Assembly (NCBI GenBank): GCA_020852275.1
Contig: JADZBE010000014.1
Coordinates: 1-64,000 of the forward strand
Length of the DNA: 64,000 nucleotides
Direction of reading: 5' to 3'
Source: Phycisphaerales bacterium
Lineage (GTDB): Bacteria > Planctomycetota > Phycisphaerae > UBA1845
Shown: in pieces, positions 4,610 to 61,446 of the stretch
Layout: each line of letters starts with the position of its first letter
Numbering within the stretch: the stretch's first letter is position 1
Program-made: the position numbers and the translations under genes
The notes under the pieces: model-generated
Seen by the model: the letters and a program-made list of their open reading frames with translations, nothing else
Databases searched by the model: none
Told to the model about the DNA's origin: nothing

Positions 4610-4680
4610 CCGAGCCGCGCCCCTTCGCCCGAGACCCGCCGTTCGCTGTCGCTGCCATCGTTGTCAGGGGCGCGGCTCGG
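4610..4680. repeat. inverted repeat between convergent genes (possible bidirectional terminator)
   Basis: Perfect 14-bp inverted arms, CCGAGCCGCGCCCC at 4610-4623 and GGGGCGCGGCTCGG at 4667-4680, enclose 43 bases. The arms belong to the GCCGCG... repeat family found elsewhere in the window. The element lies between livMG (stop 4587) and the 20-heme cytochrome gene, whose last codons (MPEPRP and stop) are read from the right arm. It could form a hairpin at the 3' ends of both transcripts, but there is no T-tract, so terminator activity is unproven. Confidence 0.55.
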
Positions 4681-7600
4681 GCATGCGTTCCTCAAGGACC
4701 GGACGGCGGTGGAAGAACAGGAATCGTTCGAGCGCTGCTTCGCCGTGACATTGCGTGCACAGATTCGGCGCGATGAACGGACGCAGCATCGGCTGCATCG
4801 ACCTGCGGAGAACAGACGGAACATCGTTCGCCGCGACATCCTGCGGGCCCTCGCCGCTATTCAAGCCGGAAACATCCTCTGCGTGGAATCGGCCGTGCGT
4901 CGCGTGGCACGTCGTGCAGGAGATGCTGCCCGCGGCGCCGGGCATTCCCGCGTCATCCGTAAGGGGCATGAAGCCCGGCGCGCCGGAGGGAACGGCGCTG
5001 GTGATTGTCAGCGCGGGATGGTCGGATCGACCCGGCGCTGCGGCCGGACCGTCTTCGCGGTGGCACTCGATGCACCAAGCGGGGCCGGGCGGCGCTGCCA
5101 TGAGACTCGCTGCGGACTGACCCAGCTTCAACTCAGTCCCCGCGCCCTCGACGGCATGAACCGCGTGGCACGGTCCGCAGGTCTGACGAGGCGGTAGCGC
5201 GGCAGAGAGCGCCGTCGCGGAGTGCAGGCTTGCGGGGACGGTATTCGCGGCGTCGTGGCAGCGGGCGCACAACGTCGCGGGGTCGGCGTCGTCGCTGTGT
5301 CGAAGCATCGCGTGGTCTGGATCACCGCCGGCGTGGGGATCGTGACAGGTTCCGCAGGAGACGCGACCCGGCGCGCAGCGTCGCCCGCGTTCATCAAACA
5401 GCGGAAGCGCGGCATCCGCCGGCCGCGTCGGCGACGCCGGGACCAGCGTGAGCGGATGAAGCAGCTCGCGCGCGGGCGACGCGGGGAGGCGCCCTGCGGT
5501 CTGATGGCATTCGAGGCACAACCCCTCCGCGGTCGTCGGCGTGGAATCGGCGGCCCGCCACAGCGCGAGCCGAGGCTGACCATGCACGCCGTGACAGAAC
5601 CCGCAGCGCCCGGTGCGATCAGCCCCGGCGCCCTGGCCGTTGCGCCAATTGGGATTGTCGAGGAAGTCGTGCGGACCGCCGGTCATGGCCGTCTTCTCGG
5701 CATGACACGCGGCGCAGAGATCATCCGGGGAGGCCCGGAGAAAGTCGGCGTGCCGGTCGGCGTGCGGGTCATGACAATGCGTGCAGCGCAAACCCCTGTC
5801 GTCGCGTGAGGCGGACGCGGACCGGCCTGACAAGGCCAGGAGCGGCGCGAGACGATCCGCGTCAACGTCCGTGGGGTGCGCGAACGGAAGCCCGCGCCGA
5901 AACGGCGAGCATCCGTCCGGCTGGTGACAGGTGATGCAGCGTTCCGCGCCCATCGTGCGCGCGGCGGCGGCCTGTGGGGTCGCTGCCAGGGCATCCTCGA
6001 CGGACCCGCGCGCGTCGGCGTGAACGGCATGACAGGCGCTGCACGGACCGGATTCCTCCGCCGTCCGGCCGAACGCGTTTCGTTCCTCAGGCGCCGTCAG
6101 GCGCAGGTCATGCGCCGTGCCCATCACCGACTGCTGCCCCGCGTGACAGGTCCGGCACAAGGCCCCGTCGCAGGAGGAAGTCACCAGCAGCGCGTCCGGC
6201 GCGGGAGCGGTGTGCATCTTGTGGCACGCAAGACAACCGCTGGTCCGCGCCCATGTGTCGCGCACGCCCAGCTCGCGCAGGGCGTCGCGCTGAAGCGGAT
6301 CCAGCGGCGCGGAGGTCGGATGCAGCGACGCGCCCCGTGCGACTTTCGCGCCGATCTCGCCCCCGGCACCCGCCCCGGCTTCCATGCTCAGTCCCCCCGC
6401 CAAGCCTTGCCCCTTCGTTTCGTGGCACTGCAGGCACAGCGTGTCAGCCGGACCGTCCACGGCGAGCAGCGCGTCACGCGAAGAGCCGTGCGGCGTGTGG
6501 CAGTCGAGGCACGCCGCGCCTCTTGCGGCATCCAACTCGGCCCGCTCGCGCGCCGCACGCGCCGGCTCGCGTGCAGAAACCGTCCGCTCGCGCGATGGAC
6601 CCGACGTCTGCGGCGCTGCGGTCCCCGGCTCCGCGGGTGCCGCCGGGCTGATCTCGATCGGGTGCATCCCGCTCGCGCCGGCCGCGCCGATGTCCGAATG
6701 GCAGCGCATGCACAACTCCGACGGGCTGCTCTGCACGCGCAGGAAGACGGCCTCCTTGAGCATGTTGCCCGATCCGCCGCGTGTGTGCGCGCTGTGACAC
6801 GTGCGGCAGACGACCTGGCCCGCCACCAGAGGAAGATCGGCTGGGACATTCATGCCCGCCGGCGGCGTTACGCCGGATCCGTGCCCGTGATCCTGCCAGA
6901 CGCGGCGGCGCGAGTCGGTCACCGAGCCGTCGTGACAGGAGAGGCAGTTGTCCTCGCGGCTGACGAGCGGATGCTCTGGCGGGTTCTCAGGCAGCGTGAT
7001 CAGTTCCGTCGAACGCCCTTCTGAGAGCGACGGCGTCCACTCGATGTGACACACCACGCACGCCTGCGGCTGGCGCTCGACGGCGGCGCGGGGCGTCGCG
7101 CGGCGCGACGGGGCCTTGACGTTCTCGCTGATTTCCACCTTGACCACGCGCCCGGCGCGGACTTCGACGACGTATGCATGGCCCGTCGCGTCCAACGCCA
7201 ACCCGGAGGGCGAGTCGAATTTCATCGGCCCGCCCTCAGGCTCCCGGAGCACGTCGATAAACTCCCCCTCTTTCGTGAAGACGGAAACGACGCCCAGCCG
7301 GCCATCCGCCGCCCAGACGCGCTGCGCGGAATCCCAGGCCACACCCTTGGGCCGGAAGAGCTGCCCCGGCTCGACGCCAAAGCTGCCCGCCGCGCCGTTG
7401 CACGTGCCGTCTTCCTGCCACAAACCCACGCGACCGTTGATCACGTCGGACACGCACAAGTTTCCTCGTCCGTCGGCTGCGATCAGAAAAGGGTGATCGA
7501 ACTGCCAGCGCGCGGGGCCCGCGGATCCGATCACCGCCGCCGCGCCGCTGGTCAGATCGACGCGCAGGAGATGATGCTGCTGATTGTCCACGACGAAGGC

Positions 7601-8152
7601 GAACTGCTCGTCCGTCGAGAGCGCGAGGTCGGTGACGTCCTCTCCTCCTTCGGTGGAAGCTGGAACGGGCAGCATTCTCGCCCAGCGTCCGTCCGCCTCG
7701 CAGGCGACGAGGCGGCGATGGTCCGTGTCCGCGATCCAGAGTCGGCCCGAGCGATCGAACGTCACACCGACGGGGCGGCCGAGGCTGTCGTCGCCGTCTG
7801 AAGTCACGAGCGCGGAGATTGCGCCGTCCGGAGAGAAGATGACGACGCGGTCGTTGACGCCGTCGGCCACGGCGACGCGCCCATCCGAGGCGACGGCGAC
7901 ATCGGAAGGCAGGCGCATCAGGGCGTCGTCGGGCGCGGAAAACGTCTGCACGATGCGGCCGGTGAAGCGGTTGAATGCGTCTTCCCGGTTCGGTTCAACC
8001 GCATTCAGCGTCGGCGCGGGCACGGACGCGGCACGAGCCGCCGCCGCATGGACCGGCACGGCGCCGGGCGGCGCGGATTGCGCAAGCGCCAAGCCGGCGA
8101 GGAAGGCAGACCCGAAGGTCGCCACCCGCCGCCTCGTGGGAGGTGGGCTCAT
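4664..8152 (-). CDS. secreted 20-heme c-type cytochrome with N-terminal NHL propeller
   Basis: Predicted periplasmic or cell-surface electron carrier of 1162 residues. After an N-terminal export signal (hydrophobic around 12-24), residues about 75-342 form six NHL-type blades (e.g. LPSDVAVASDGRVAVADGVN, RPVGVTFDRSGRLWIADTD). From Cys365 onward there are 20 CXXCH heme motifs, the first CVVCH at 365-369 and the last CTQCH near the C-terminus. Many are in the paired spacing of the doubled-CXXCH (Paired_CXXCH_1) family. The start overlaps the stop of the upstream triheme gene by ATGA, indicating translational coupling. The final codons fall in a palindromic repeat. The electron acceptor cannot be told from sequence; an NHL domain suggests docking to a partner protein or surface. 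Confidence 0.88.
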   Translation of the reverse strand: MSPPPTRRRVATFGSAFLAGLALAQSAPPGAVPVHAAAARAASVPAPTLNAVEPNREDAFNRFTGRIVQTFSAPDDALMRLPSDVAVASDGRVAVADGVNDRVVIFSPDGAISALVTSDGDDSLGRPVGVTFDRSGRLWIADTDHRRLVACEADGRWARMLPVPASTEGGEDVTDLALSTDEQFAFVVDNQQHHLLRVDLTSGAAAVIGSAGPARWQFDHPFLIAADGRGNLCVSDVINGRVGLWQEDGTCNGAAGSFGVEPGQLFRPKGVAWDSAQRVWAADGRLGVVSVFTKEGEFIDVLREPEGGPMKFDSPSGLALDATGHAYVVEVRAGRVVKVEISENVKAPSRRATPRAAVERQPQACVVCHIEWTPSLSEGRSTELITLPENPPEHPLVSREDNCLSCHDGSVTDSRRRVWQDHGHGSGVTPPAGMNVPADLPLVAGQVVCRTCHSAHTRGGSGNMLKEAVFLRVQSSPSELCMRCHSDIGAAGASGMHPIEISPAAPAEPGTAAPQTSGPSRERTVSAREPARAARERAELDAARGAACLDCHTPHGSSRDALLAVDGPADTLCLQCHETKGQGLAGGLSMEAGAGAGGEIGAKVARGASLHPTSAPLDPLQRDALRELGVRDTWARTSGCLACHKMHTAPAPDALLVTSSCDGALCRTCHAGQQSVMGTAHDLRLTAPEERNAFGRTAEESGPCSACHAVHADARGSVEDALAATPQAAAARTMGAERCITCHQPDGCSPFRRGLPFAHPTDVDADRLAPLLALSGRSASASRDDRGLRCTHCHDPHADRHADFLRASPDDLCAACHAEKTAMTGGPHDFLDNPNWRNGQGAGADRTGRCGFCHGVHGQPRLALWRAADSTPTTAEGLCLECHQTAGRLPASPARELLHPLTLVPASPTRPADAALPLFDERGRRCAPGRVSCGTCHDPHAGGDPDHAMLRHSDDADPATLCARCHDAANTVPASLHSATALSAALPPRQTCGPCHAVHAVEGAGTELKLGQSAASLMAAPPGPAWCIECHREDGPAAAPGRSDHPALTITSAVPSGAPGFMPLTDDAGMPGAAGSISCTTCHATHGRFHAEDVSGLNSGEGPQDVAANDVPSVLRRSMQPMLRPFIAPNLCTQCHGEAALERFLFFHRRPVLEERMPEPRP

Positions 8153-9372
8153 GGCGCGGGAGGCTCCTGCGTGCCGGGTGAACGGCCCGGCGTATGCGTG
8201 TCGCCCGCTTCGCCCGGGGGATTGTCACCGGCTTCGTCCGGCGGCGGAGACGCGCCCGCTGCATCGTCCTGCGGGCGCATGAACCTCGGCAGATAGAAGG
8301 GGCTGCCCTCGGAAATGTGCTGGATCATCCGCACGACGATCGAGCCGGTCAGGTCGGCGGTGCGTTTCTCCGAGTACCCCAGTGATTTGAAGTCAACCAG
8401 ACCCGACGGCGCGTGGCAGTCGCTGCACTGCAGCGTTTGGGGTCTGCGCAGGGGATGAATCTCCGCCAGCAGCGCCGCCCTGGCGGCCTCATCGAGCCTG
8501 TCCCGTTCCGCGACAAATCGCCGCACCTGTGATTCCACACCGGGGTGGGCCAGCACCGGCGACCTGGACGCGCCGTCCACCAGCGCCAGCTTGGCGCCGT
8601 ACTCGCCGCGGAAGAAATGCGGAACGACTTCCAGCGCCGTGTGGATCATGCCCGTGTACTCGTCGCTGCCCGACGTCGTGCCCGCAAGATGGTCGGCCAG
8701 CGTGCTGAGAATCTTCCCATTCTGCGCCGCCGCGTCGGCCTCGCGCAGCAGATCAATCAGCCGCAGGCGGTCGGTTTCCGCGTCGCGGGCCGTGTGCTTC
8801 GGGGCGGTCATGTCCAGCAGCAGCGCATGCGCCGCCAGCACGCTCGGCGCGCCCCGTGCCGCCCCGGTGGCGGGATCATACCACATGACGTCCAGCGGGC
8901 GACTCTCGCTTTGGAGGTGGCAGACGCCGCAGTGAATGCTGGTGGCGTGCATGTTCAGGAACGCCCGCGTCTCCTTTCGGCCGGCGTGGGGCAGGGCGGG
9001 GTGGCAGCCGCTGGTGGTGCAGTTGTTGGCGCGGTCCGGCTGGATCCAGGTGTCGAGGCGATGGTAGTGCGCCAGCGGCGCGCGGGCGTGCTCGACCGTC
9101 TCCAGACCCGCCCAGGCGCGGCGATCGGTCTCCAGCGTCGTCGTATCCAGCCGGCGGGGCCATTGCGTCACCTGTGCCGGCGGCGGCGCCGACACCATCA
9201 GCGAGACGGCAAGGTAGCGAAACGCCCGGTATGACGTGTAACCGATGAGGGCGATCAGGGCGACGGCGTAACAGCGCAGCGTGAGCCATCGCGCCGTGCG
9301 CCCCGCCCAGGCAAGTAATCGCGCCGCGCGGCCACGTGTTGCACCGCCGCTTGTCGTTGGAGTCGTTGTCAT
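8149..9372 (-). CDS. membrane-anchored multiheme cytochrome c (three heme motifs)
   Basis: A 407-residue protein with one N-terminal transmembrane anchor (about residues 32-60, CYAVALIALIGYTSY region) and a periplasmic domain. Heme-type motifs are CTTSGCH (118-124, a CX4CH form), CGVCH (148-152) and CSDCH near residue 335. The C-terminus is Pro/Gly-rich. Start ATG 9372 overlaps the stop of the upstream cytochrome b fusion (ATGA), and its own stop overlaps the start of the 20-heme gene in the same way, so the three are made from one message. The topology suits an intermediate that passes electrons from the membrane cytochrome b to the soluble multiheme partner. A longer reading frame continues upstream but is only the shadow of the neighbour. 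Confidence 0.8.
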   Translation of the reverse strand: MTTTPTTSGGATRGRAARLLAWAGRTARWLTLRCYAVALIALIGYTSYRAFRYLAVSLMVSAPPPAQVTQWPRRLDTTTLETDRRAWAGLETVEHARAPLAHYHRLDTWIQPDRANNCTTSGCHPALPHAGRKETRAFLNMHATSIHCGVCHLQSESRPLDVMWYDPATGAARGAPSVLAAHALLLDMTAPKHTARDAETDRLRLIDLLREADAAAQNGKILSTLADHLAGTTSGSDEYTGMIHTALEVVPHFFRGEYGAKLALVDGASRSPVLAHPGVESQVRRFVAERDRLDEAARAALLAEIHPLRRPQTLQCSDCHAPSGLVDFKSLGYSEKRTADLTGSIVVRMIQHISEGSPFYLPRFMRPQDDAAGASPPPDEAGDNPPGEAGDTHTPGRSPGTQEPPAP

Positions 9373-11327
9373 GCGCCGCCTCCCGCGTGATGCGTGGCAA
9401 GTCCGAGGTCGCGGGCGGCGTCCTCCACGAACTCCGCGTGCCCTTCGACCAGTTCGCCGATCGGCGTCGTTCCGGTCAGCGTGGCGGGCGACAGCGGGAA
9501 GACGTGCGGCGAGAGCATGACGTTGTACGTGTGCAGGATGCCGACGTGAATGAGCGCGAGGAAGGCCTCGTACGTGTGCGCGATGCCCGCCAGGTTGAGA
9601 ATTCTCCCGGACAGCACGTGCGACGCCAGTTGCTCGCCCCACAGCAGCACGCCGGTGACGCCGAGGATCATCGTGCCCCAGAAGACGCCGATGTACTCGA
9701 ACTTCTCCTTCAGCGCGAAGCGCCCGAACTTGGGCCGGTCGGGACGCAGAAAGCAGAGATATTGCAGCAGGTGCAGCGTCTTGCGCGCGTCGTCGAGGGT
9801 CATCCACATCGGCAGGGCGATGAACGTCCGCAGGAATCCGCGCGGCGTCACGCCCGATGAAGCGGATCGAGAACGGACCCACACGAGCGCAAGGGTGTAG
9901 CCCATGTGTCCGAGGAAGCCGACGACCAGCAGGATGCCGCAGACGTGGTGAATCAGCCGCGCGGCGCCGAGTCCGCCGAAGCCCGCGATCAGCCACGCCG
10001 CCCACGGCTCCGCGGCGAACTTCATCGGAAAGCCGGTCAACACCAGCAGCACGAACAACGCCGCGAGCGTCCAATGCTGGATCCGCTGCGACACGCTGAA
10101 GCGGACCAGCCGCCTGCGACCTTTCGAGCCGTCCATGAGCTGGACCGCCAGCTCGCGCACCTGCTCGTCGCGCGGCGACTCGCGCCCCACCGCCAGTTGC
10201 AACAGCTCCAGAAGCGACAACACCATCGACGGACCGAACGTCATCACCGTCAGAATGATGAACGCGGCCGCGAGAAGGTACTCCAGCGATCCGTGCGCCG
10301 TCGGCAGGTCGAGGTGCACGCCCATGTCGCCGATGCTCGGGGACGCGCCCGGGTGACATTCAACGGTGCCGCAAGTGGAAGCGATGCGGCTTTCGTTCGC
10401 CGGCGACTGCGGCGCCGTATGCGGCACGATCGCATGGACGCTTCCGCCGCGCGTCGCATGACAGGACAGGCAGGACGCCGTCGATTCGTCGCCGAGGAGG
10501 GCGGCTTTGCCGTGGAAGGTGCGCATGTAGCTGGCGACGGTGTCGGTCAGGCCGAGCGTTTCCAAGACCTTGGCGTCGCTGTGGCAGACGGAGCAGACCT
10601 GCGCGACTTCAAGCGTCGGGCGCGCCGGCTGAAGCCGCGCGGAGACGTGGCGCAGGGCGTAGGCGATGTTCACGTCGAGGGGCTGCTCGTGGCAGGCGCG
10701 GCAGCGGTGCATGGCCTGGTCGCCGAACAGGGCGAGCTGTGGAAGAGTCTTGCCCGCGTCGCGAAAGACCGGCTCGTCGTGGCAGTAGAGGCAGGCGGAT
10801 TGGTCCTTCTCCAGAAGCGCGCCGCTGGTGAACGTCAGCGCCGTGAGGTCCTCCGGGCGGTGGACGCTGCCAGCGAGCGCGTCGCCGATCCCCGCGTGCG
10901 TGAAGCGCTGCACGCTGCCGCCGGGGTTGGCGAGATGGCAGGCGCGCGTGCAATCCACCCGCGCCACGGGGCCGTGTGGCACGACGCCCACGCCGTCCCC
11001 CACGTGACAATCCGTGCAGGCCAGGCGCCCGTGCGGACCGGCCAGCGAATGCGAATAATCGGGATCGACGAAGAAAACGTGCAGGCGATCCAGCTCGCGA
11101 TCGTAGCGCGACAGGCCTCGAAACTGGTGACAGAGCAGGCAGTTCTCCGGATCGGGCGATTGCGCGCTGACCGTGGGCGCGATGCCGATCAACACCGCGC
11201 CGAGCAGCAGCGCCGCCCTCCGCAAGCTTGCGCGGCGTGAGCCTGCTGCCTCCGCACCGCATGCGCAACACCGGCCGGCCGGTGCCCGCGTATCACCAAC
11301 TATCCCGCGTTCCCATGCCACGTCCAT
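9369..11327 (-). CDS. multiheme cytochrome c fused to a membrane cytochrome b
   Basis: A 652-residue protein with a signal sequence (about 36-55, ending TVSAQ) and a periplasmic heme domain. The heme domain has six CXXCH motifs (CLLCH, CTDCH, CLYCH, CRACH, CSVCH, CLSCH) plus two expanded ones, CTRACH (CX3CH) and CGTVECH (CX4CH). The C-terminal half (from about residue 350) is a multi-helix b-type cytochrome with membrane His residues (RIQHWTLA, RLIHHVCGILLV, GHMGY, GIAHTYEAFLALIHVGILHTYNV), like NarI/FdhG/b561-type quinol oxidases. The likely role is quinol oxidation coupled to periplasmic heme reduction. This is the first cytochrome gene of the operon; GGGGGA precedes the ATG. Confidence 0.82.
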   Translation of the reverse strand: MDVAWERGIVGDTRAPAGRCCACGAEAAGSRRASLRRAALLLGAVLIGIAPTVSAQSPDPENCLLCHQFRGLSRYDRELDRLHVFFVDPDYSHSLAGPHGRLACTDCHVGDGVGVVPHGPVARVDCTRACHLANPGGSVQRFTHAGIGDALAGSVHRPEDLTALTFTSGALLEKDQSACLYCHDEPVFRDAGKTLPQLALFGDQAMHRCRACHEQPLDVNIAYALRHVSARLQPARPTLEVAQVCSVCHSDAKVLETLGLTDTVASYMRTFHGKAALLGDESTASCLSCHATRGGSVHAIVPHTAPQSPANESRIASTCGTVECHPGASPSIGDMGVHLDLPTAHGSLEYLLAAAFIILTVMTFGPSMVLSLLELLQLAVGRESPRDEQVRELAVQLMDGSKGRRRLVRFSVSQRIQHWTLAALFVLLVLTGFPMKFAAEPWAAWLIAGFGGLGAARLIHHVCGILLVVGFLGHMGYTLALVWVRSRSASSGVTPRGFLRTFIALPMWMTLDDARKTLHLLQYLCFLRPDRPKFGRFALKEKFEYIGVFWGTMILGVTGVLLWGEQLASHVLSGRILNLAGIAHTYEAFLALIHVGILHTYNVMLSPHVFPLSPATLTGTTPIGELVEGHAEFVEDAARDLGLATHHAGGGA

Positions 11328-11375: not shown

Positions 11376-12161
11376 TCACATCGACCCCGTGCGCCCGCCG
11401 TCGATCGTCAGGTTGATCCCGGTCACGTAGCTCGCCTCGGCGGACGCGAGGAACGCCACGCCCGCCGCGATCTCACGCGGGGAGCCGAACCTGGCCATGG
11501 GCGTCCGAGCTTTCATGCCCGCCATGATTTGCTCCGTGGAGGTGCCCTCGTGCCTGGCGCGGGCATCGATCAGCCAACCCAGACGCGCCGTCTCCGTGTA
11601 CCCCGGCAGCACGTTGTTGACCGTGATTCCCAGCGGCGCGACTTCCATCGCCCACGTCTTCGCCCAGTTGGCCACGGCGTTGCGGATCGTGTTGGACACG
11701 CCGAGTCCGGCGATCGGCTCCTTCACCGAGGTGGAGATGATGTTGATGATGCGCCCGTAGCCGCGCTCCTTCATGCCCGGCAGCAGCGCCTGCGCGAGAA
11801 GCTGGTTGCAGAGAACGTGCCGGGTGAAGGCGTCCAGAAACGCCTGCGGCTGCGCCTGGGTGATCGGTCCGTGCGGAGGTCCGCCCGTGTTGTTGACGAG
11901 AATCTCGATCGGCCCGTGCGCCGCGACATGCGCGACGACACGATCGCGCACCGAGGTCGGCTCATCAAAGTTCGCAACGACGCAGGCGTGCCGCTGGTCG
12001 CGCGGGCGCGCCAGTTCCGCCATCACGCGCCGCAGGGCACTCTCATCGCGCGCCGCCAGCACCACCGTCGCGCCCTGCTCGGCCAGCACCTCCGCGCACG
12101 CCCGGCCGATGCCCTGTGTGCTCCCGCAGACCAGCGCTGTCTTGTCGTGGAGATCAATCAT
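11376..12161 (-). CDS. short-chain dehydrogenase/reductase family protein (atypical active site)
   Basis: A 261-residue Rossmann protein of normal SDR length. It has a cofactor loop GSTQGIG (13-19), the NNTGG motif (90-94), the IISTS strand end with the active-site Ser (about 143-145) and the C-terminal SYVTGINLTIDGG signature. The usual catalytic YxxxK after the Ser is not present: the equivalent stretch reads GVSNTIRNAVANWAK (about 154-168), with Ser/Asn where Tyr is expected and Arg in place of Lys. A divergent SDR subgroup with this substitution exists, so activity may be altered rather than lost. The gene ends 48 bp before the cytochrome b fusion on the same strand; co-transcription is possible but a functional link is unproven. 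Confidence 0.82.
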   Translation of the reverse strand: MIDLHDKTALVCGSTQGIGRACAEVLAEQGATVVLAARDESALRRVMAELARPRDQRHACVVANFDEPTSVRDRVVAHVAAHGPIEILVNNTGGPPHGPITQAQPQAFLDAFTRHVLCNQLLAQALLPGMKERGYGRIINIISTSVKEPIAGLGVSNTIRNAVANWAKTWAMEVAPLGITVNNVLPGYTETARLGWLIDARARHEGTSTEQIMAGMKARTPMARFGSPREIAAGVAFLASAEASYVTGINLTIDGGRTGSM

Positions 12162-51701: not shown

Positions 51702-52400
51702 TTACTCCAGCCGAAGCCGATAACCCACGCCGACCTCCGTCAGCAGATACCGTGGCTGGGAAGGCTCTTTCTCCAACTTCTGTCGAAGTTGCCGTACAAA
51801 CATGCGCAGATAAGTCGATTCCTCCGCGTAACCCGGTCCCCAGACTTCGCGCAGCAGTTGACGCTGCGTCATGACCATCCCTGCGTGCCGGGCCAGCGTC
51901 GTGAGCAGTTTGTACTCCAGCGGTGTCAGGTGCACTTCCTGCCCGCACCGCGTCACGACGCGACGAGGCAGGTCGATCACGATGTCCCCGGCGACAATCG
52001 TCGCATCAGCCGATGGCTGGGCTTGGCGCGCGGCGTGACGCATCGCAACGCGAACCCGCGCAATGAGTTCGCCGACACCAAAGGGCTTCGAGACGTAATC
52101 ATCCGCGCCGGCGTCGAGGGCCGCGATCTTGTCCTTCTCCTGCCCACGTGCGGAGAGGATGATGATCGGCACGGCGGACCACTCGCGGACACGCCGCACG
52201 ACCTCGATGCCGTCGATATCCGGCAGGCCGAGATCGAGAATGATGACCTCCGGCCGGTTCTGTGACGCTTCGAGGATGCCTCGCTGGCCGGTCTCTGCTT
52301 CCACGAGTCGCCATCCGGCGGCATCGATGGACGGCCGAAGAAAGCGCCGGATCGGCAGTTCATCTTCCACAAGCAGGACGCAGGCCGGCGTGACGCTCAC
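51702..52400 (-). CDS. kdpE: KdpE response regulator
   Basis: A 232-residue OmpR-class regulator that activates kdp transcription when phosphorylated by KdpD. The receiver has VLLVEDELPIRRF, the phospho-acceptor Asp56 in VIILDLGLPDIDG, and YVSKPFGVGELIARV. The DNA-binding winged helix is LTPLEYKLLTTLARHAGMVMTQRQLLREVWGPGY...YLRMFVRQLRQKLE, ending in RYLLTEVGVGYRL. The PxxxF(K/R)xxL pattern matches KdpE. The start overlaps the kdpD stop by four bases (ATGA), so the pair is translationally coupled. Confidence 0.95.
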   Translation of the reverse strand: MSVTPACVLLVEDELPIRRFLRPSIDAAGWRLVEAETGQRGILEASQNRPEVIILDLGLPDIDGIEVVRRVREWSAVPIIILSARGQEKDKIAALDAGADDYVSKPFGVGELIARVRVAMRHAARQAQPSADATIVAGDIVIDLPRRVVTRCGQEVHLTPLEYKLLTTLARHAGMVMTQRQLLREVWGPGYAEESTYLRMFVRQLRQKLEKEPSQPRYLLTEVGVGYRLRLE

Positions 52401-55138
52401 ATCATGGTCTCCAAAGTGCTCGTGGGCGAAGTTTGATCTGCTGCGGCCGAGTCACTGGCGCCGCTGAACCCTGGTGGCGTTTCCGGAGTAACGGGCAGGG
52501 TGAACCAGAATCGGGCGCCTCCCCCCAGCCTGTTCTCAGCACCCATCTGACCGCCATGCAACCTCACAACGGCTTCGCATATCGCGAGTCCCAATCCCGA
52601 GCCCGAGCGGTCGCCGGAAGGTCGATGCCGCACGAACCGGCGGAAGATGTCTTTTTCGGTGCCTGGTTGCAGCCCCGGCCCTTCGTCCATCACTTCGACG
52701 AGAATACCGTTCGTAGCGGAAGAAGCTCGAACCGTAACGGTGGAATCCGACGGTGTGTAGCGGGCTGCATTCTCCAGCAGGTTGCCCAGCACTTCTTCGA
52801 TGAGCGGTCCGTCCACCTGGAGCAGCGGGAGATCTCCGGGAATGTCCGTCGTCACAGGACGCGGGTGCAGCGCCGAGCTGAGCCGAGTCAAGGCCGCGCC
52901 GACCAGTTCGTCCAGCGGATACCAGTCCTTCTGAAGCCGGAACCCGGCCGCCTCCAGCCGCGTCATGTCCAGCAACTTGCCGACGAGTTGGTTGAGTCGG
53001 CCCGCTTCCTCAGCGATGGACTGGGCCAACTCGCGCCGCGCCGTCCCCGTCAGTTGCGCTGGGTCATCGACGAGGGTGCTGGCGGCTCCCGCGATCGCGG
53101 CCAACGGCGTGCGAAGGTCATGGGACACACAGCTCAACAACGAACTGCGTACGTGTTCAGTCTCCGCTTCGCGTCGGGCTACCTCCGCCTCCGACGCGAA
53201 CGCTGCGCGCTCCATCGCAATCGCAAGCTGCGTCGCGAACGTTTCCAGCATGTGCCTTTGATCCGGCTCCAACGGGGACTCAGGGCGGCGCGGGCGCATG
53301 GCGAGCACCCCCAGCGGTTTTCCGGAGGCGATCAGGGGCAAGTAGATCGCTTGCGACGCTGGCAGCGTCTCCGTGCTCCAGCCGGCCCACTGCCTGTGCT
53401 CAAAGACCCACTGCGCCGCGGTTCGCTCGTTCGTGAGTTCCGCGGCGAACTCGCCAGACTGGGCGACGGCCGCGAGATGCCCCAGCGAATCCGGGATGAG
53501 AATGACGGTATCTCCCTGGAACACATCGGCGACGTGCTTGGCGGCGACGCGGGCGAGCGAATCGGCACTGGCCGCGGCCGCAAGCTGGCGACTCATGAAG
53601 TACAAGGCGAACGTACGGTGATAGCGCGTGCGCATGCCTTGGGCTTGCCGGCGCACGCGTTGAGCCAACCCGCTTACGACCAGGGCTGTGACCAGGAGGG
53701 CAATGAACGTGATGAAGAGCGTCGGATCATGGATCACGAACGTGTAATACGGCTCCGTGAACAGAAAATTGAACAAGAAGGCTGCGAGCACGGAGCCCAA
53801 GACGGAAGGACCGACAGTGTACCGCGTGGCCACGAACACCACGCCTGCCAGGAAGATCATCGTGAGGTTCACGGTAGGCACGTAGGGTCCGGCGATCGCG
53901 GCCAGAATGGTGCAAACGGCAATTACGCCGGTTGCGGCTGCGTACGCCTTCCAATCCACTTGGCGGCGGTCCGTGGAGGCACGGGCGGCCACGACGTCCT
54001 CCGGCTCGCCCTTGACGACGTGCACATCGATTTCGCCGCTGCGGCGGATCAGTTCATCGACGATGGAGCCACGCAGCCATTCGCGCCAACGCGGCAGCGT
54101 CGGCTTCCCGACGACGATCTTGGTGACGTTGTGGCGGACCGCGTATGCCAGGATTTCATCGACCACCCGATCGCCGGAGAGGACAGTCGGCTCCGCGCCC
54201 AGGCGCTCGGCGAGCTTCAGGTTGCGCCTGACCTGGGCCGTGGCAATTTCCGATTGTCCAGGCGTCTCAATACTGACTGCAAGCCATTCGGCCTGGACCG
54301 CGGCCGCCATGCGGCGCGCAATCCGGATAACACGCGCTGATAGCGGACTCGGTCCGACGCAGACGAGGATGCGCTCGGACGTGGCCCACGGCCGCGTCTC
54401 GCCCCGCCCCGCACGTTCGACGCGAACCTGCTCGCCGACTCGGGCCGCCGTTTCCCGCAACGCCAACTCGCGCAAGGCGACGAGGTTCTCGCGACGGAAA
54501 AACTGTTGGACAGCCCGCTGCACTTGGTCGGCGACGTACACCTTCCCTTCTCGCAGCCGCTCGAGCAGGTCATCCGGCGGAATGTCCACCAGTTCGATCT
54601 CATCGGCGCGCTCGATCATCGAATCCGGGACCGTCTCATTGACCGAAACGCCGGTGATTTGGGCGACCACGTCGTTGAGCGATTCGATATGTTGGACGTT
54701 GACCGTTGTGTAAACGTCGATGCCTGCGTCGAGGATTTCGAGCACGTCCTGGTAGCGCTTGGCGTGGCGGAGGCTCTCCGCGTTCGTGTGGGCGAGTTCG
54801 TCGACCAGAACCAAGCCGGGCCTGCGAGCCAGCACAGCATCGAGATCAAGCTCACGCAGCCGTACGCCGCGGTAGTCAACCCACAGTGGTGGCAGTTCCT
54901 CCAGACCCACCTTGAGGGCGTCGGTCTCTGTCCGCTTGTGCGTTTCAATGTAGCCCGCCAGAACATCCGTCCCGGACTGTCGCCGCTCCCGCGCCTCCTG
55001 GAGCATGGCGTAGGTCTTACCCACCCCGGCGCACATGCCGAAGAAGACCTTGAGCCGACCATGGCGCGGCTGCGGTTCCTCGGCTTGCGCCCGGGTAAGC
55101 AAGGCATCGGGATCGGGCCGTGATTCGGTCACGCGCAT
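52397..55138 (-). CDS. kdpD: KdpD sensor histidine kinase
   Basis: A 913-residue membrane kinase sensing K+ limitation or osmotic stress. Domains in order: the N-terminal KdpD domain with P-loop GMCAGVGKTYAML (34-46) and LAGYIETHKRTETDAL; a universal stress protein-like domain (about 253-380); four transmembrane helices of DUF4118 (about 398-493, with NFLFTEPYYTFVIHDP); a GAF-like domain (about 510-645); the His box SCVSHDLRTPLAAI with His673; and HATPase motifs NLLENAARYTP, DEGPGL and GSGLGLAICEAVVRLHGG. This is the full-length form. It is downstream of the kdp pump genes but separated from kdpB by about 1.8 kb holding small genes. Confidence 0.95.
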   Translation of the reverse strand: MRVTESRPDPDALLTRAQAEEPQPRHGRLKVFFGMCAGVGKTYAMLQEARERRQSGTDVLAGYIETHKRTETDALKVGLEELPPLWVDYRGVRLRELDLDAVLARRPGLVLVDELAHTNAESLRHAKRYQDVLEILDAGIDVYTTVNVQHIESLNDVVAQITGVSVNETVPDSMIERADEIELVDIPPDDLLERLREGKVYVADQVQRAVQQFFRRENLVALRELALRETAARVGEQVRVERAGRGETRPWATSERILVCVGPSPLSARVIRIARRMAAAVQAEWLAVSIETPGQSEIATAQVRRNLKLAERLGAEPTVLSGDRVVDEILAYAVRHNVTKIVVGKPTLPRWREWLRGSIVDELIRRSGEIDVHVVKGEPEDVVAARASTDRRQVDWKAYAAATGVIAVCTILAAIAGPYVPTVNLTMIFLAGVVFVATRYTVGPSVLGSVLAAFLFNFLFTEPYYTFVIHDPTLFITFIALLVTALVVSGLAQRVRRQAQGMRTRYHRTFALYFMSRQLAAAASADSLARVAAKHVADVFQGDTVILIPDSLGHLAAVAQSGEFAAELTNERTAAQWVFEHRQWAGWSTETLPASQAIYLPLIASGKPLGVLAMRPRRPESPLEPDQRHMLETFATQLAIAMERAAFASEAEVARREAETEHVRSSLLSCVSHDLRTPLAAIAGAASTLVDDPAQLTGTARRELAQSIAEEAGRLNQLVGKLLDMTRLEAAGFRLQKDWYPLDELVGAALTRLSSALHPRPVTTDIPGDLPLLQVDGPLIEEVLGNLLENAARYTPSDSTVTVRASSATNGILVEVMDEGPGLQPGTEKDIFRRFVRHRPSGDRSGSGLGLAICEAVVRLHGGQMGAENRLGGGARFWFTLPVTPETPPGFSGASDSAAADQTSPTSTLETMM

Positions 55139-55210
55139 ATCCTACCTTTTTACGCTTGAAGCGCGAATCGAAAGGGGATCGTTCATGCGGTGCAGGATTG
55201 CGTGATGTCC

Positions 55211-55477
55211 CTAGCCGCTACCTCGAAGGGAGAGCAGGTGCCCGCACTGCGGGCAGAACCGTATCGCGCGCTCCGAGCTCATGCACCTCGATGTACCTGC
55301 CAATGACGGAACGGCGTGGGACCGGCGGCGTCCAGCATCAAAGAGCAGCGCCAGGAGCACCGCAAGACAAACGGCGGCGCAGAAGAGGGTCGTGCCCCAT
55401 CCCAAACCCTGCGGAACCGCCGCGTGAAGCGACGTGGAAGGGGGTACGACCCCGAGGATACCCGCGAGCACAAACAC
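55211..55477 (-). CDS. small membrane protein with zinc-ribbon-like tail
   Basis: An 88-residue frame with GTG start. It has two hydrophobic stretches (LAGILGVVPPSTS and TTLFCAAVCLAVLLALLF) and a C-terminal CPQCGH that could bind metal. It lies in the kdp locus between the 28-residue hydrophobic ORF and kdpD, on the same strand and 13 bp after the former. There is no strong Shine-Dalgarno. Coding status rests on position and hydrophobic pattern only. Confidence 0.45.
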   Translation of the reverse strand: MFVLAGILGVVPPSTSLHAAVPQGLGWGTTLFCAAVCLAVLLALLFDAGRRRSHAVPSLAGTSRCMSSERAIRFCPQCGHLLSLRGSG

Positions 55478-55490
55478 GGAGAATCGCCGC

Positions 55491-55577
55491 CTATCCCTGG
55501 AGCTGGCTCATCGGAATCTGTAACAGCCCCGTGATCAGGAAAACCAGGACTTCGAACAGCAGGTCAATAAAGAACAT
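55491..55577 (-). CDS. 28-residue hydrophobic peptide in the kdp locus
   Basis: A single predicted transmembrane helix, MFFIDLLFEVLVFLITGLLQ, followed by a short polar tail IPMSQLQG. GAGGAG lies six bases upstream of ATG 55577, and the Shine-Dalgarno overlaps the stop of the beta-barrel gene (stop at 55592), which suggests translational coupling. Size and shape recall small Kdp subunits (KdpF type), but the sequence is not KdpF. The function is unknown. Confidence 0.55.
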   Translation of the reverse strand: MFFIDLLFEVLVFLITGLLQIPMSQLQG

Positions 55578-55591
55578 AAACATCTCCTCAA

Positions 55592-56566
55592 CTAGAAACG
55601 CCAACAGAACCCAATGCCCGTAAAGAAATCGGGCGCCTCCTCGTTCAGTCCAAACCCGGCCCGCACGTCGATCTGGAAGTTGTCCTCGATCAGGATCACC
55701 GGACCGAAGTTGATGTTGTGCTGGCAATCGCTTCCGCGCGTGCTCGGGTACAAACCGTAATACTCCACGAAGCCGCCGAGGTTCGACGTGAACTGATAGT
55801 ATGTGGCCAGCGACGCGCCGGATTGAAAGAAACGCCCGTCGCCGTCACTGATCCACGTGGCCAACCCCACCCCGTACACGGTCCATTTGTCGGTCAGGGC
55901 GTAGTTCCACGCCAGCCGCACCTCGGGATCGACGTCGCCGGTGGATTTGCTGTCGGACCCGACGGGGATTGAGATCGCCGGAATGATCGAGAGATTCGGC
56001 ATCAGGCCCTGTTGCTTCAACAGCGGCGATTTGAAACCGACGCTCATGTCCGTTGCCCCGTCATCGTGGTCCTCGCGCGTGATGTGCCGGCCGGCCCACG
56101 GGCTGACGTCCTCGAAGTGCGAAGCGGTCAGAGACATTCCCGTCCATTTGACCCGCAGCTCAAAGTTCTCCAGGAGGCCCGTGCGCAGCGAGAACTCGCC
56201 GATGGTGTGGTTGGCGAGGCGCGTCGAGCGCTCGTGGTCGTAGGTGAACGTGTAGCCGAACTCCAGATGCGAGTACCCGCGGGGCACGAGCGAATAACTG
56301 TCGGAGAAGCCCGGACGATCGCTGCTCATCGGCCCGACCTGCGTGGGCCGGTTGAAGATCCAGAACCCCTCGGGCTGCTGGGTGGCTGTCTCTTCGCCCG
56401 CCGGTCCCTCCCTCTTCGGCTGCTCTTGGGAGTATCCAAGATCAAACGCGCTCGCCGGAGCTGGTTTCGCCGCGGGCTGAGTCGTAGCGCTCTCCTGCGC
56501 CGCCGCGCCGCGCGTGAAGGCGATTCCGATCAGCGCGAGAGCGCAAGAGCCACGAAATGACCGCAT
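55592..56566 (-). CDS. exported beta-barrel-like protein (MetA-pathway/DUF3187-type transporter)
   Basis: A 324-residue protein with a signal peptide (FRGSCALALIGIAFTRGAAAQ, about 3-23). Its mature part is aromatic- and Gly-rich with alternating hydrophobic strands: GYSHLEFGYTFTYDHERS, FELRVKWTGMSLTASHF, LSIIPAISIPVGSDS, TDKWTVYGVGLATWI, and a terminal Phe (CWRF). This is typical of outer-membrane beta-barrels grouped as phenol MetA-pathway transporters, whose function is mostly unproven. ATG 56566 is preferred; the frame reaching 56866 lacks support. It lies within the kdp transcription unit, between kdpB and kdpD. Confidence 0.7.
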   Translation of the reverse strand: MRSFRGSCALALIGIAFTRGAAAQESATTQPAAKPAPASAFDLGYSQEQPKREGPAGEETATQQPEGFWIFNRPTQVGPMSSDRPGFSDSYSLVPRGYSHLEFGYTFTYDHERSTRLANHTIGEFSLRTGLLENFELRVKWTGMSLTASHFEDVSPWAGRHITREDHDDGATDMSVGFKSPLLKQQGLMPNLSIIPAISIPVGSDSKSTGDVDPEVRLAWNYALTDKWTVYGVGLATWISDGDGRFFQSGASLATYYQFTSNLGGFVEYYGLYPSTRGSDCQHNINFGPVILIEDNFQIDVRAGFGLNEEAPDFFTGIGFCWRF

Positions 56567-56652
56567 GGCATCACCGTCCTTGTTGAAAAAGCACGCCCGG
56601 AGGGGCGGCGCGTGGTTGGCGCGCCGCCCACGGGCCTCGTCGATCCGCCGCG

Positions 56653-56817
56653 CTACTTCTGCGCGGGCTTCTGCGGGTTGCCCGGCGTGCCAACCGATGG
56701 CGCCCCCTTGGCCGGCGTCGTATTGGGCGCCGAGGGCTTGGGTTGCTGTGGTGGCTTGGGCGTCTGGCCGGGTTTGGCCGGCTGACCCGCATTCGATTGC
56801 GTGTGCACTTGCGTCAC
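56653..56817 (-). CDS. 54-residue Pro/Lys/Ala-rich ORF in the kdp locus
   Basis: A GTG-started frame, MTQVHTQSNAGQPAKPGQTP and so on, is made almost entirely of Pro, Ala, Lys, Gln, Thr and Gly, with G or C at nearly all third positions. It has no hydrophobic segment. It lies 101 bp after kdpB and 86 bp before the beta-barrel gene start, on the same strand. It may be a small disordered protein, but composition alone cannot exclude chance; the ribosome binding site is weak. Confidence 0.35.
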   Translation of the reverse strand: MTQVHTQSNAGQPAKPGQTPKPPQQPKPSAPNTTPAKGAPSVGTPGNPQKPAQK

Positions 56818-56918
56818 TCCATGCCCGTTCAGGTTTCGGGCGGACCCGGACCGGCGTCAGCGCCAACGAGGCGTTGTCCCCGGACCGAACATAGTTAAAT
56901 CAGTCATGGCGTACCTGC

Positions 56919-59150
<2,232 letters not shown>

Positions 59151-59189
59151 TTGGTTAATACCGCAAACTCCGCGTCATCCCAATGCAGG

Positions 59190-59750
59190 CTAGGGTCCGG
59201 TCTCTGCATCGAGGGCCAGGTTCAATTCCAGCACGTTGACCAGCCGGTCCGGCGTGAGCGGACCGCCCGGCGAGAACGCGTGATTTCGGATCAGCGATTC
59301 GACTTTTGAGGGAGCCACTCCGCGCGCGCCGGCCACGCGCACCGCCTGGTACAGCGCCGCATGTTCGGTAATGTGGGGATCCAGTCCGCCGCCCGAGGCC
59401 GCGGCCAAATCGGCGGGGAGCGCCTTGTCCGGTGTCGCGCCGTACTGCTCCACCGTCTTGGCGGCGCGATCGGTCAAGTCGGAACTCGTCGGCGACTTGT
59501 TGCTCCCGGCGGCGCCCGAGGCGTTATAGTCCGGCGCCGACGGTCGAGGCCAGAAGTACCCGGGCTTCTCGAACTTCTGAGCAATAAGCCGGCTGCCCAC
59601 GATGGTTCCGTCGCCCCGCGTGATCAATGAGCCGTTCGCGGTAACCGGGGTGCAGACCTGGGCCACCCCGAGGATCACCGCTGTATACACGCCGGCGCAA
59701 ATCAGCAGGCTCACCCCCGCGATGCGCAAACTGGCCAACAAAGTCTGCAT
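59190..59750 (-). CDS. kdpC: KdpC subunit of the K+-transporting ATPase
   Basis: A 186-residue single-span membrane protein that stabilises KdpA-KdpB. A signal-anchor helix (IAGVSLLICAGVYTAVILGVAQV, about 9-31) is followed by QKFEKPGYFWPRPSAPDYNASGAAGSN, the KdpC signature, then ASGGGLDPHITEHAALYQAVRVAGARGV and the C-terminal VNVLELNLALD. Start 59750 agrees with family N-termini. It lies 19 bp after kdpA and 39 bp before kdpB. Confidence 0.95.
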   Translation of the reverse strand: MQTLLASLRIAGVSLLICAGVYTAVILGVAQVCTPVTANGSLITRGDGTIVGSRLIAQKFEKPGYFWPRPSAPDYNASGAAGSNKSPTSSDLTDRAAKTVEQYGATPDKALPADLAAASGGGLDPHITEHAALYQAVRVAGARGVAPSKVESLIRNHAFSPGGPLTPDRLVNVLELNLALDAETGP

Positions 59751-59769
59751 ATGGGTTTCCAATACACAA

Positions 59770-61446
59770 CTAGGGCATGAACTGAAGGTGCTCGACGATG
59801 GGCCCCAGCGCGCCCGCCGGGAAAAACGTAAGTGCCCCAATGATCGCGATGACCGCCGTCAGCATGACCGCAAACGTGCCGCCCTCGACGCCCAACGTGC
59901 CGGCCGACTGTGCCGTCGGTCGCTTGGAGGCCAGCGACCCGGCGATGGCCAGCGGGAGGAGGATCGGGATGAACCGTGCCAGGAGCATCACGATGCCGGT
60001 GGCGATGTTCCACGGCGGGGTGTTGTCACCCAGCCCTTCGAAGCCGGAGCCGTTGTTTGCAGTGGACGAGCTGAACTCGTAAAGCATTTCGCTGAAGCCG
60101 TGGGCGCCGCCGTTGTTGAGCGTTTTCGTCCCCCAGGGCGTCACCGCGAACAGGGCGGAGGCGCCGAGGATGAAAAACGCGTGCGCCAGCATGGCGACGG
60201 CCGCGAGCTTGACCTCGCGCGCCTCCACGCGGCGGTTGAGATACTCCGGCGTCCGTCCGACCATCATCCCCGCCAGAAACACGGCCAGAATGACGTAGAC
60301 GAACATGTTGATCATGCCCACGCCGACGCCGCCGAAGTCCTCGTTCAGCCACATCCCGATCAGCGGCATCAGCCCCGTCATCGGATTCAGGCTGTCGTGC
60401 ATGCAGTTGACGGAGCCGTTGCTGGTGGACGTGGTCACGACCGCCCACAGGGGCCCCGCCGCTGTGCCGAAGCGCAGCTCCTTGCCTTCCAGGTTCCCGG
60501 TGCTCTGTTCGATGGGCAATGCGGTGAAGGCTTGCGTCGGGGCCGACTCGAACCAGGCCGCGCATGCGATCCGCATCGACATCAGGGCAAGCATCACGCC
60601 GAACACGACCGCAGCATGACGGAGGCGACCCACGATCCGTCCGAACATCCACACGCACGCCATCGGGATCAGGATGATGGAAATCGTGGACAGCACGTTT
60701 GTCCAGAACGTCGGGTTCTCGAACGGATGCGCGCTGTTGGGACCGAAGAACCCGCCGCCGTTCGTGCCGAGTTGCTTGATCGCCAGGAACGCCGCCACCG
60801 GACCCCGGGCGATGGTCTGCGTCGCGCCTTCCAGAGTCGTGGCTTGCGCCGCGCCTTGCAGCGTCATGGGCATCCCGCCCAACACCACCAGGGTCGCGAC
60901 CAGCACCGCGGCCGGCAGCATGATCAGAAAGGTCGCGCGCTGCACGTCGAGGAAGAAATTGCCGGGCGCCCGGCCGACCAGCCCTCGTGCCATCGCCGCC
61001 AGCGCGGCCAGTCCAACCGCCGGGGTCACGAATTGGAGCCACATCAGCGCGCAGAGCTGCGACAGATAGCTCATCGTCGATTCGCCCGAGTAATGCTGCA
61101 AGTTGGTGTTCGTCGTGAATGAGGCCGCCGTGTTGAAGATCAGGCTGCCTTCGATGGCCTTCATGCCGTCCGGATTGAGCGGCAGGTACTGCTGCAACGC
61201 CATGACACCGAAGCTCACGGCGAAGATGATCACGTTGAACGCGAGCAGCGTGACCATGTAGCGCTTCCAGCCCTGCTGCTCTCGGCCCAGCCTGCCGGTC
61301 ACGCGCTCAAAAAGCCGGTCCAGGGCACGGCGCCGCGCCCCGACGACCGCGGGGGGATCCATCGCCCATTTCATGTACCGGCCTAGCGGCCATGACAGCG
61401 CGGCCGAGCCGCCGACGATGAAAACAATGAAAATGACTGCACTCAT
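59770..61446 (-). CDS. kdpA: KdpA, K+-channel-like subunit of the K+-transporting ATPase
   Basis: A 558-residue polytopic membrane protein that binds and translocates K+. The four selectivity-filter loops of the SKT superfamily are visible: TTNTNLQHY (from 111), GTNGGGFFG (227-235), TSNGSVN (about 343) and ANNGSGFEG (about 466). Length and the FNVIIFAVSFGVMALQQYLPLNPDG segment are normal for KdpA. It starts 13 bp after a 31-residue ORF that itself overlaps kdpF, and is followed by kdpC. Confidence 0.96.
   Translation of the reverse strand: MSAVIFIVFIVGGSAALSWPLGRYMKWAMDPPAVVGARRRALDRLFERVTGRLGREQQGWKRYMVTLLAFNVIIFAVSFGVMALQQYLPLNPDGMKAIEGSLIFNTAASFTTNTNLQHYSGESTMSYLSQLCALMWLQFVTPAVGLAALAAMARGLVGRAPGNFFLDVQRATFLIMLPAAVLVATLVVLGGMPMTLQGAAQATTLEGATQTIARGPVAAFLAIKQLGTNGGGFFGPNSAHPFENPTFWTNVLSTISIILIPMACVWMFGRIVGRLRHAAVVFGVMLALMSMRIACAAWFESAPTQAFTALPIEQSTGNLEGKELRFGTAAGPLWAVVTTSTSNGSVNCMHDSLNPMTGLMPLIGMWLNEDFGGVGVGMINMFVYVILAVFLAGMMVGRTPEYLNRRVEAREVKLAAVAMLAHAFFILGASALFAVTPWGTKTLNNGGAHGFSEMLYEFSSSTANNGSGFEGLGDNTPPWNIATGIVMLLARFIPILLPLAIAGSLASKRPTAQSAGTLGVEGGTFAVMLTAVIAIIGALTFFPAGALGPIVEHLQFMP

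Follow-up and report, generated by a model that had tools for sequence, protein, structure and literature searches.

A multiheme operon of an uncultured planctomycete as the probable inner half of an extracellular electron transfer conduit

Three genes of an uncultured planctomycete, here called A, B and C and read in that order on the minus strand, probably encode the inner half, in inner membrane and periplasm, of a conduit for extracellular electron transfer that resembles the porin-cytochrome type; the likeliest outer-membrane modules are encoded by a gene set on another contig of the same genome (C11). The window, that is the whole stretch of DNA analysed, comprises 64,000 nucleotides of contig JADZBE010000014.1 (GCA_020852275.1). 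The reading is supported by the FdnI-like domain of A, the matching of heme motifs to invariant histidines, the fusion of A to B in some relatives, the co-occurrence of A with C and with a putative barrel, one-strand clusters in relatives, a decaheme of the OmcA/MtrC family beside A in one relative (L036), and the barrel clusters on contigs C11 and C24 of the window's genome. Counting against it are the operon without an outer-membrane gene, a barrel that matched nothing in Pfam or PDB, three A-bearing genomes in which no barrel was detected, and same-genus relatives whose C copy is not beside A-B.

Operon layout and heme motifs

Gene A (9369..11327, minus strand; 652 aa) encodes a multiheme/cytochrome b fusion with a CbcL/MtrH/MtoC-like architecture and eight heme c motifs, gene B (8149..9372, minus strand; 407 aa) an N-terminal helix followed by a triheme domain predicted to be periplasmic, and gene C (4664..8152, minus strand; 1162 aa) a predicted exported protein with an NHL propeller and a 20-heme cytochrome domain. 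Both junctions are ATGA overlaps, at 9369-9372 (A/B) and 8149-8152 (B/C). Motif conservation was scored in 18 sequences for A, 17 for B and 6 full-length sequences for C. Because the motifs are conserved in relatives of all three proteins, the total of 31 (8+3+20) is not due to chance; 28 are canonical and 3 are not, namely a CX3CH and a CX4CH in A and a CX4CH in B. The earlier note's claim of three linked genes with 31 heme-type motifs was borne out.

No outer-membrane gene was found within the operon, so that on its own it does not form the membrane-to-surface conduit that had been suggested as possible. A narrower reading is supported, in which an oxidoreductase moves electrons between quinol and the periplasm and works together with a large cytochrome that carries them. 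A scan for promoters and terminators gave nothing that exceeded chance. The short-chain dehydrogenase directly upstream of A on the same strand (11376..12161, minus) is probably not part of the system. Elsewhere in the window, the size and helix count of the genes at 51702-61446 (minus strand) suggest a Kdp operon for potassium transport.

Genes A and B

The predicted periplasmic octaheme domain of A (10308..11150, minus strand; residues about 60-340) holds six CXXCH motifs, one CX3CH (CTRACH, 126) and one CX4CH (CGTVECH, 319). All eight were kept in the 18 sequences, with one motif in differing spacing in L032, and the alignment of relatives gave exactly eight further invariant periplasmic histidines (99, 118, 144, 156, 227, 272, 298 and 338). 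The membrane domain (9513..10277, minus strand) is composed of a leading helix and an FdnI/b561-like four-helix unit, with five invariant histidines (418, 460, 474, 584 and 599). It matched the b561/hydrogenase family of Pfam (PF01292) at 32.1 bits, above the cut-off of 30.1, and a profile search matched it to E. coli FdnI (1kqf_C) at 6.6e-8. Foldseek, run on the AlphaFold model of an A-B fusion from a relative (L034), aligned the cytochrome b domain to the same structure with a TM of 0.75 on the target. Hydropathy analysis of A returned a signal peptide and four helices, while a fifth (about 584-603, with two invariant histidines) fell under the cut-off; A probably has five helices after the heme domain, or six with the signal peptide. 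At E 0.1 neither A nor B gave a match to the NapC/NirT domain PF03264, an NrfH match in A was weak and far under the cut-off, and A had no match when searched against plasmids.

With its FdnI-like membrane part, A shares its architecture with the CbcL/MtrH/MtoC quinol oxidoreductases. It fits their published description as proteins in which between 3 and 23 heme motifs (3-23) are joined to an FdnI/HydC-like domain that has conserved histidines; they are reported from 15 phyla including Planctomycetes, and six membrane helices are usually predicted for them (PMC6295460). The proposal that the complex is of an undescribed type therefore does not hold for A, given the FdnI match by both profile and fold. 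The likeness extends to an N-terminal multiheme c domain whose eight motifs lie within the described range, to the b-type membrane domain and to cytochrome genes that often adjoin. Unlike CbcL with its nine CX2CH motifs, A has eight, including CX3CH and CX4CH, and it is further set apart by a constant triheme partner and an NHL/20-heme neighbour.

That partner, B, was found next after A wherever the extent of the contig shows it. Its start was set at the ATG at 9372, which is supported by relatives; the mechanical open reading frame began 329 codons too early. B carries two CXXCH motifs and one CX4CH (CTTSGCH, 118), and in the 17 aligned sequences these three motifs are accompanied by four invariant extra histidines. 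Its N-terminal helix was recognised by eye and lies under the hydropathy cut-off. In three lineages (L030, L034 and G047; fusion loci L030, L034 and L008/L092) B is fused to the C-terminus of A, an arrangement which would place that terminus in the cytoplasm and let the helix of B cross the membrane again.

Some further arrangements of A-type genes were observed. At L030:3-6408 an A-B fusion lies immediately upstream of separate A and B genes, as tandem copies of the module, and many genomes of the family carry 11-19-heme proteins fused to an A-related cytochrome b of about 30% identity (L009-L020).

Gene C and predicted heme coordination

C had been described as a secreted 20-heme protein. 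Its 20 CXXCH motifs stood, but an NHL beta-propeller had been overlooked (7118..7972, minus strand; residues 61-345; Pfam NHL 1.4e-14), which was modelled by AlphaFold2 with a pLDDT of mostly 80-95. The heme domain (4709..7060, minus strand; residues 365-1148) has, next to the 20 motifs, exactly 20 other histidines that are invariant in the six full-length sequences, the window's included. Judging by eye from its N-terminal sequence, C would be exported. Its NHL and heme parts are separate genes in L029, L035, G046, G047 and G050. In the relatives of the same genus (G009-G011) the C homologue lies apart from A-B; the gene preceding it in G010 (L085), considered as a ResB gene, proved to be an ABC transporter.

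With one invariant extra histidine for each motif in A (8/8) and C (20/20), all hemes of these two proteins look bis-histidine ligated. Together with the four extra histidines for the three motifs of B, this argues for six-coordinate hemes that would serve electron transfer rather than catalysis. There was no sign of an open or lysine-ligated catalytic heme in A, B or C, as no CXXCK was present and the invariant extra periplasmic histidines at least equalled the heme motifs in number. A reading of A and C as catalytic cytochromes (HAO, NrfA or OTR) was rejected on these grounds. AlphaFold gave confident structure only for the cytochrome b domain and portions of B in the L034 fusion and for the NHL propeller in C, and did not resolve the heme domains of either.

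Putative barrel and clusters with the probable outer half

On contig C11 of the window's genome a putative barrel is followed by 11-heme, 4-heme, NHL and 8-heme genes (G000:C11:92000-103000, L054), where a divergent 8-heme gene was also seen. It is putatively assigned as a barrel from its beta-alternation, with z values of 3.3 and 4.4 against at most 1.2 for the other proteins tested, from a C-terminal Phe in most type-1 copies, and from its gene context. It had no match in Pfam or PDB, and the MtrB/PioB model PF11854 matched nothing in the window's genome.

In a relative of genus g32 (G047) one strand carries, in order, two 8-heme genes, the barrel, NHL, 11-heme (in two frames), 4-heme, NHL and 8-heme genes, the A-B fusion, and the NHL and 20-heme parts of C. 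G046 repeats this order on one strand from the barrel onward, with A and B unfused, and in G050 an order of the same type is spread over a contig break. The 11-heme gene lies in two overlapping frames in two g32 genomes (L091:16390-18338 and L119:9724-11482) and is intact in G050 (L089); a frameshift, an assembly error or a real split would each account for the broken copies. Electron flow beyond the periplasm, as the earlier note had it, is made likely by relatives whose clusters join these genes to the putative outer-membrane barrel, and the C11 set is most likely the greater part of the outer half that the operon lacks.

A second barrel cluster, on C24 (L051, L052), holds a putative barrel, NHL proteins, 4-, 5-, 11-, 12- and 13-heme genes, ResB and CcsB; a divergent NHL/17-heme protein was also noted on this contig. 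Its 12-heme gene is a paralogue of C (47% identical over 789 aa), and the presence of this paralogue and a barrel beside the ResB/CcsB genes could indicate that the partner of A-B-C is the C24 cluster, or both clusters together, and not only the C11 set. We consider this somewhat unlikely, since the barrel that adjoins A-B-C in G046, G047 and G050 is of the C11 type, at about 42% identity versus 23-27% to the C24 type.

Two other kinds of gene were recorded in these surroundings. Genes for 11-19-heme/cytochrome b fusions adjoin the barrel cluster at L093/L126. A NapC/NirT-type gene with 7+1 heme motifs, three predicted helices and an ImcH-like layout lies on contig C20 of the window's genome (L055:3886-5538), and a gene of similar layout was found at L124:4482-6113.

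Proposed electron path and its direction

In the reading we favour, A would exchange electrons with the quinone pool through its FdnI-like pair of b hemes and pass them to its own octaheme arm in the periplasm. The triheme protein B, which would be anchored in the membrane and kept close to A (in some relatives as one fused protein), would relay them to C. From C they may pass over the periplasm to outer-membrane modules whose genes lie elsewhere in the genome; the barrel, 11-heme, 4-heme, NHL and 8-heme proteins of C11 are the likeliest of these.

Outward flow is assumed here by analogy with CbcL. The same chain could run inward, with extracellular Fe(II) or some other donor supplying electrons that reach quinone by way of C, B and A. 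In FdnI itself, quinone reduction takes place at the cytoplasmic face. Inward flow has been proposed for MtoC, and relatives of CbcL/MtrH/MtoC occur in Fe(III) reducers and Fe(II) oxidisers alike, with no feature of the sequence that tells the direction (PMC6295460). The window's genome also has the ImcH-like protein, a type so far known only from metal reducers, and we regard inward flow as unlikely.

Distribution and co-occurrence

Distribution was determined in 248 genomes of the class, each at least 85% complete. An orthologue of A was found in 30 of the 248, C in 32 and the C11-type barrel in 53, with the weaker barrel matches including the C24 type. C was present in 29/30 genomes with A versus 3/218 without it (Fisher 2.6e-33, kinship ignored), and at the genus level in 22/23 versus 3/162. 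The barrel accompanied A in 27/30 genomes versus 26/218 without A, again with kinship ignored; the A-bearing genomes in which it was not detected are G059, G069 and G100. Within genus g32, A, C and the barrel are all present in G046, G047 and G050 and all absent in G048 and G049. By the coordinates listed, A and C are no more than about 6 kb apart on the same strand in 15/29 genomes. Metagenomes of wastewater, groundwater, fen and subsurface are the source of the relatives, most of which are uncultured. At L036:6555-8912 a decaheme of the OmcA/MtrC family is divergent from A (NCBIfam, 267.6 bits, above the cut-off of 209.3).

These patterns bear on a further possibility, in which A-B is a general hub between quinol and periplasmic cytochromes for soluble periplasmic reductases, C is a periplasmic electron store and nothing crosses the outer membrane. 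The operon without a porin, the three genomes without a detected barrel, the A-B genes with neither C nor barrel nearby in L025 and L032, and the 8-9-heme neighbours in L026, L027 and L032, whose weak cytochrome c552/c554 matches could mark soluble partners, would suit it; the strong association of both A and C with the barrel, the barrel in the one-strand clusters of G046 and G047 and the OmcA/MtrC-family neighbour in L036 make it unlikely.

Comparison with known systems

A conduit composed of A-B-C and the C11 set would resemble MtrCAB, Pcc, PCC3 and Uet in combining a barrel with periplasmic and outer cytochromes and an inner-membrane partner. CbcL relatives elsewhere adjoin mtrAB/mtoAB (PMC6295460), the periplasmic proteins of PCC3 carry 21-27 hemes, and Uet includes the NHL proteins UetHI (PMC10734462). 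It would differ from them in a barrel that the MtrB/PioB model misses, in the fusion of NHL to a 20-heme protein, and in a quinone enzyme that sometimes lies inside the same cluster.

Multiheme cytochromes also stand beside NHL-repeat proteins in Desulfovibrio ferrophilus, in Dethiobacter and in Geoalkalibacter, where the locus further adjoins a putative quinol-oxidising cytochrome (PMC9769857, PMC10376724, PMC12016550); compared by description, the NHL proteins there are separate genes, unlike in C. Similar by description are porin-multiheme clusters reported as novel from freshwater members of a neighbouring phylum, Verrucomicrobia, in which a porin of a new type is combined with cytochromes that have eight hemes or are extracellular (PMC5615132). 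Mco of ANME archaea, a membrane cytochrome b with a 7-11-heme cytochrome that is a proposed entry to extracellular transfer (PMC9012536), shows the same pairing as A, whereas its cytochrome b is of the VhtC type, its genes are separate and the cell envelope is archaeal.

The enzyme type of A is thus already known, as are NHL-cytochrome and porin-cytochrome loci in other organisms. Four features are new as far as we found: a triheme protein as constant partner, the fusion of NHL and 20-heme domains, the division of the cluster between contigs in the window's genome, and a barrel family that matches nothing in the libraries searched; a search of open-access papers returned no description of the A-B-C/barrel set in Phycisphaerae.

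Implications

Tentatively, and at somewhat less than even confidence, Phycisphaerae and some relatives may hold complete conduits from quinone to the cell surface that form a lineage of their own and evolved apart from Mtr and Pcc. Such conduits would have a distinct barrel family, structural NHL-propeller proteins and a CbcL-like enzyme for which the triheme partner is obligate, and the window would encode the inner half. Such a conduit would add a barrel family outside Mtr/Pcc, and its markers (A+B, C and the barrel) would let the part that uncultured relatives play in iron, humic and electrode chemistry be predicted from their genomes.
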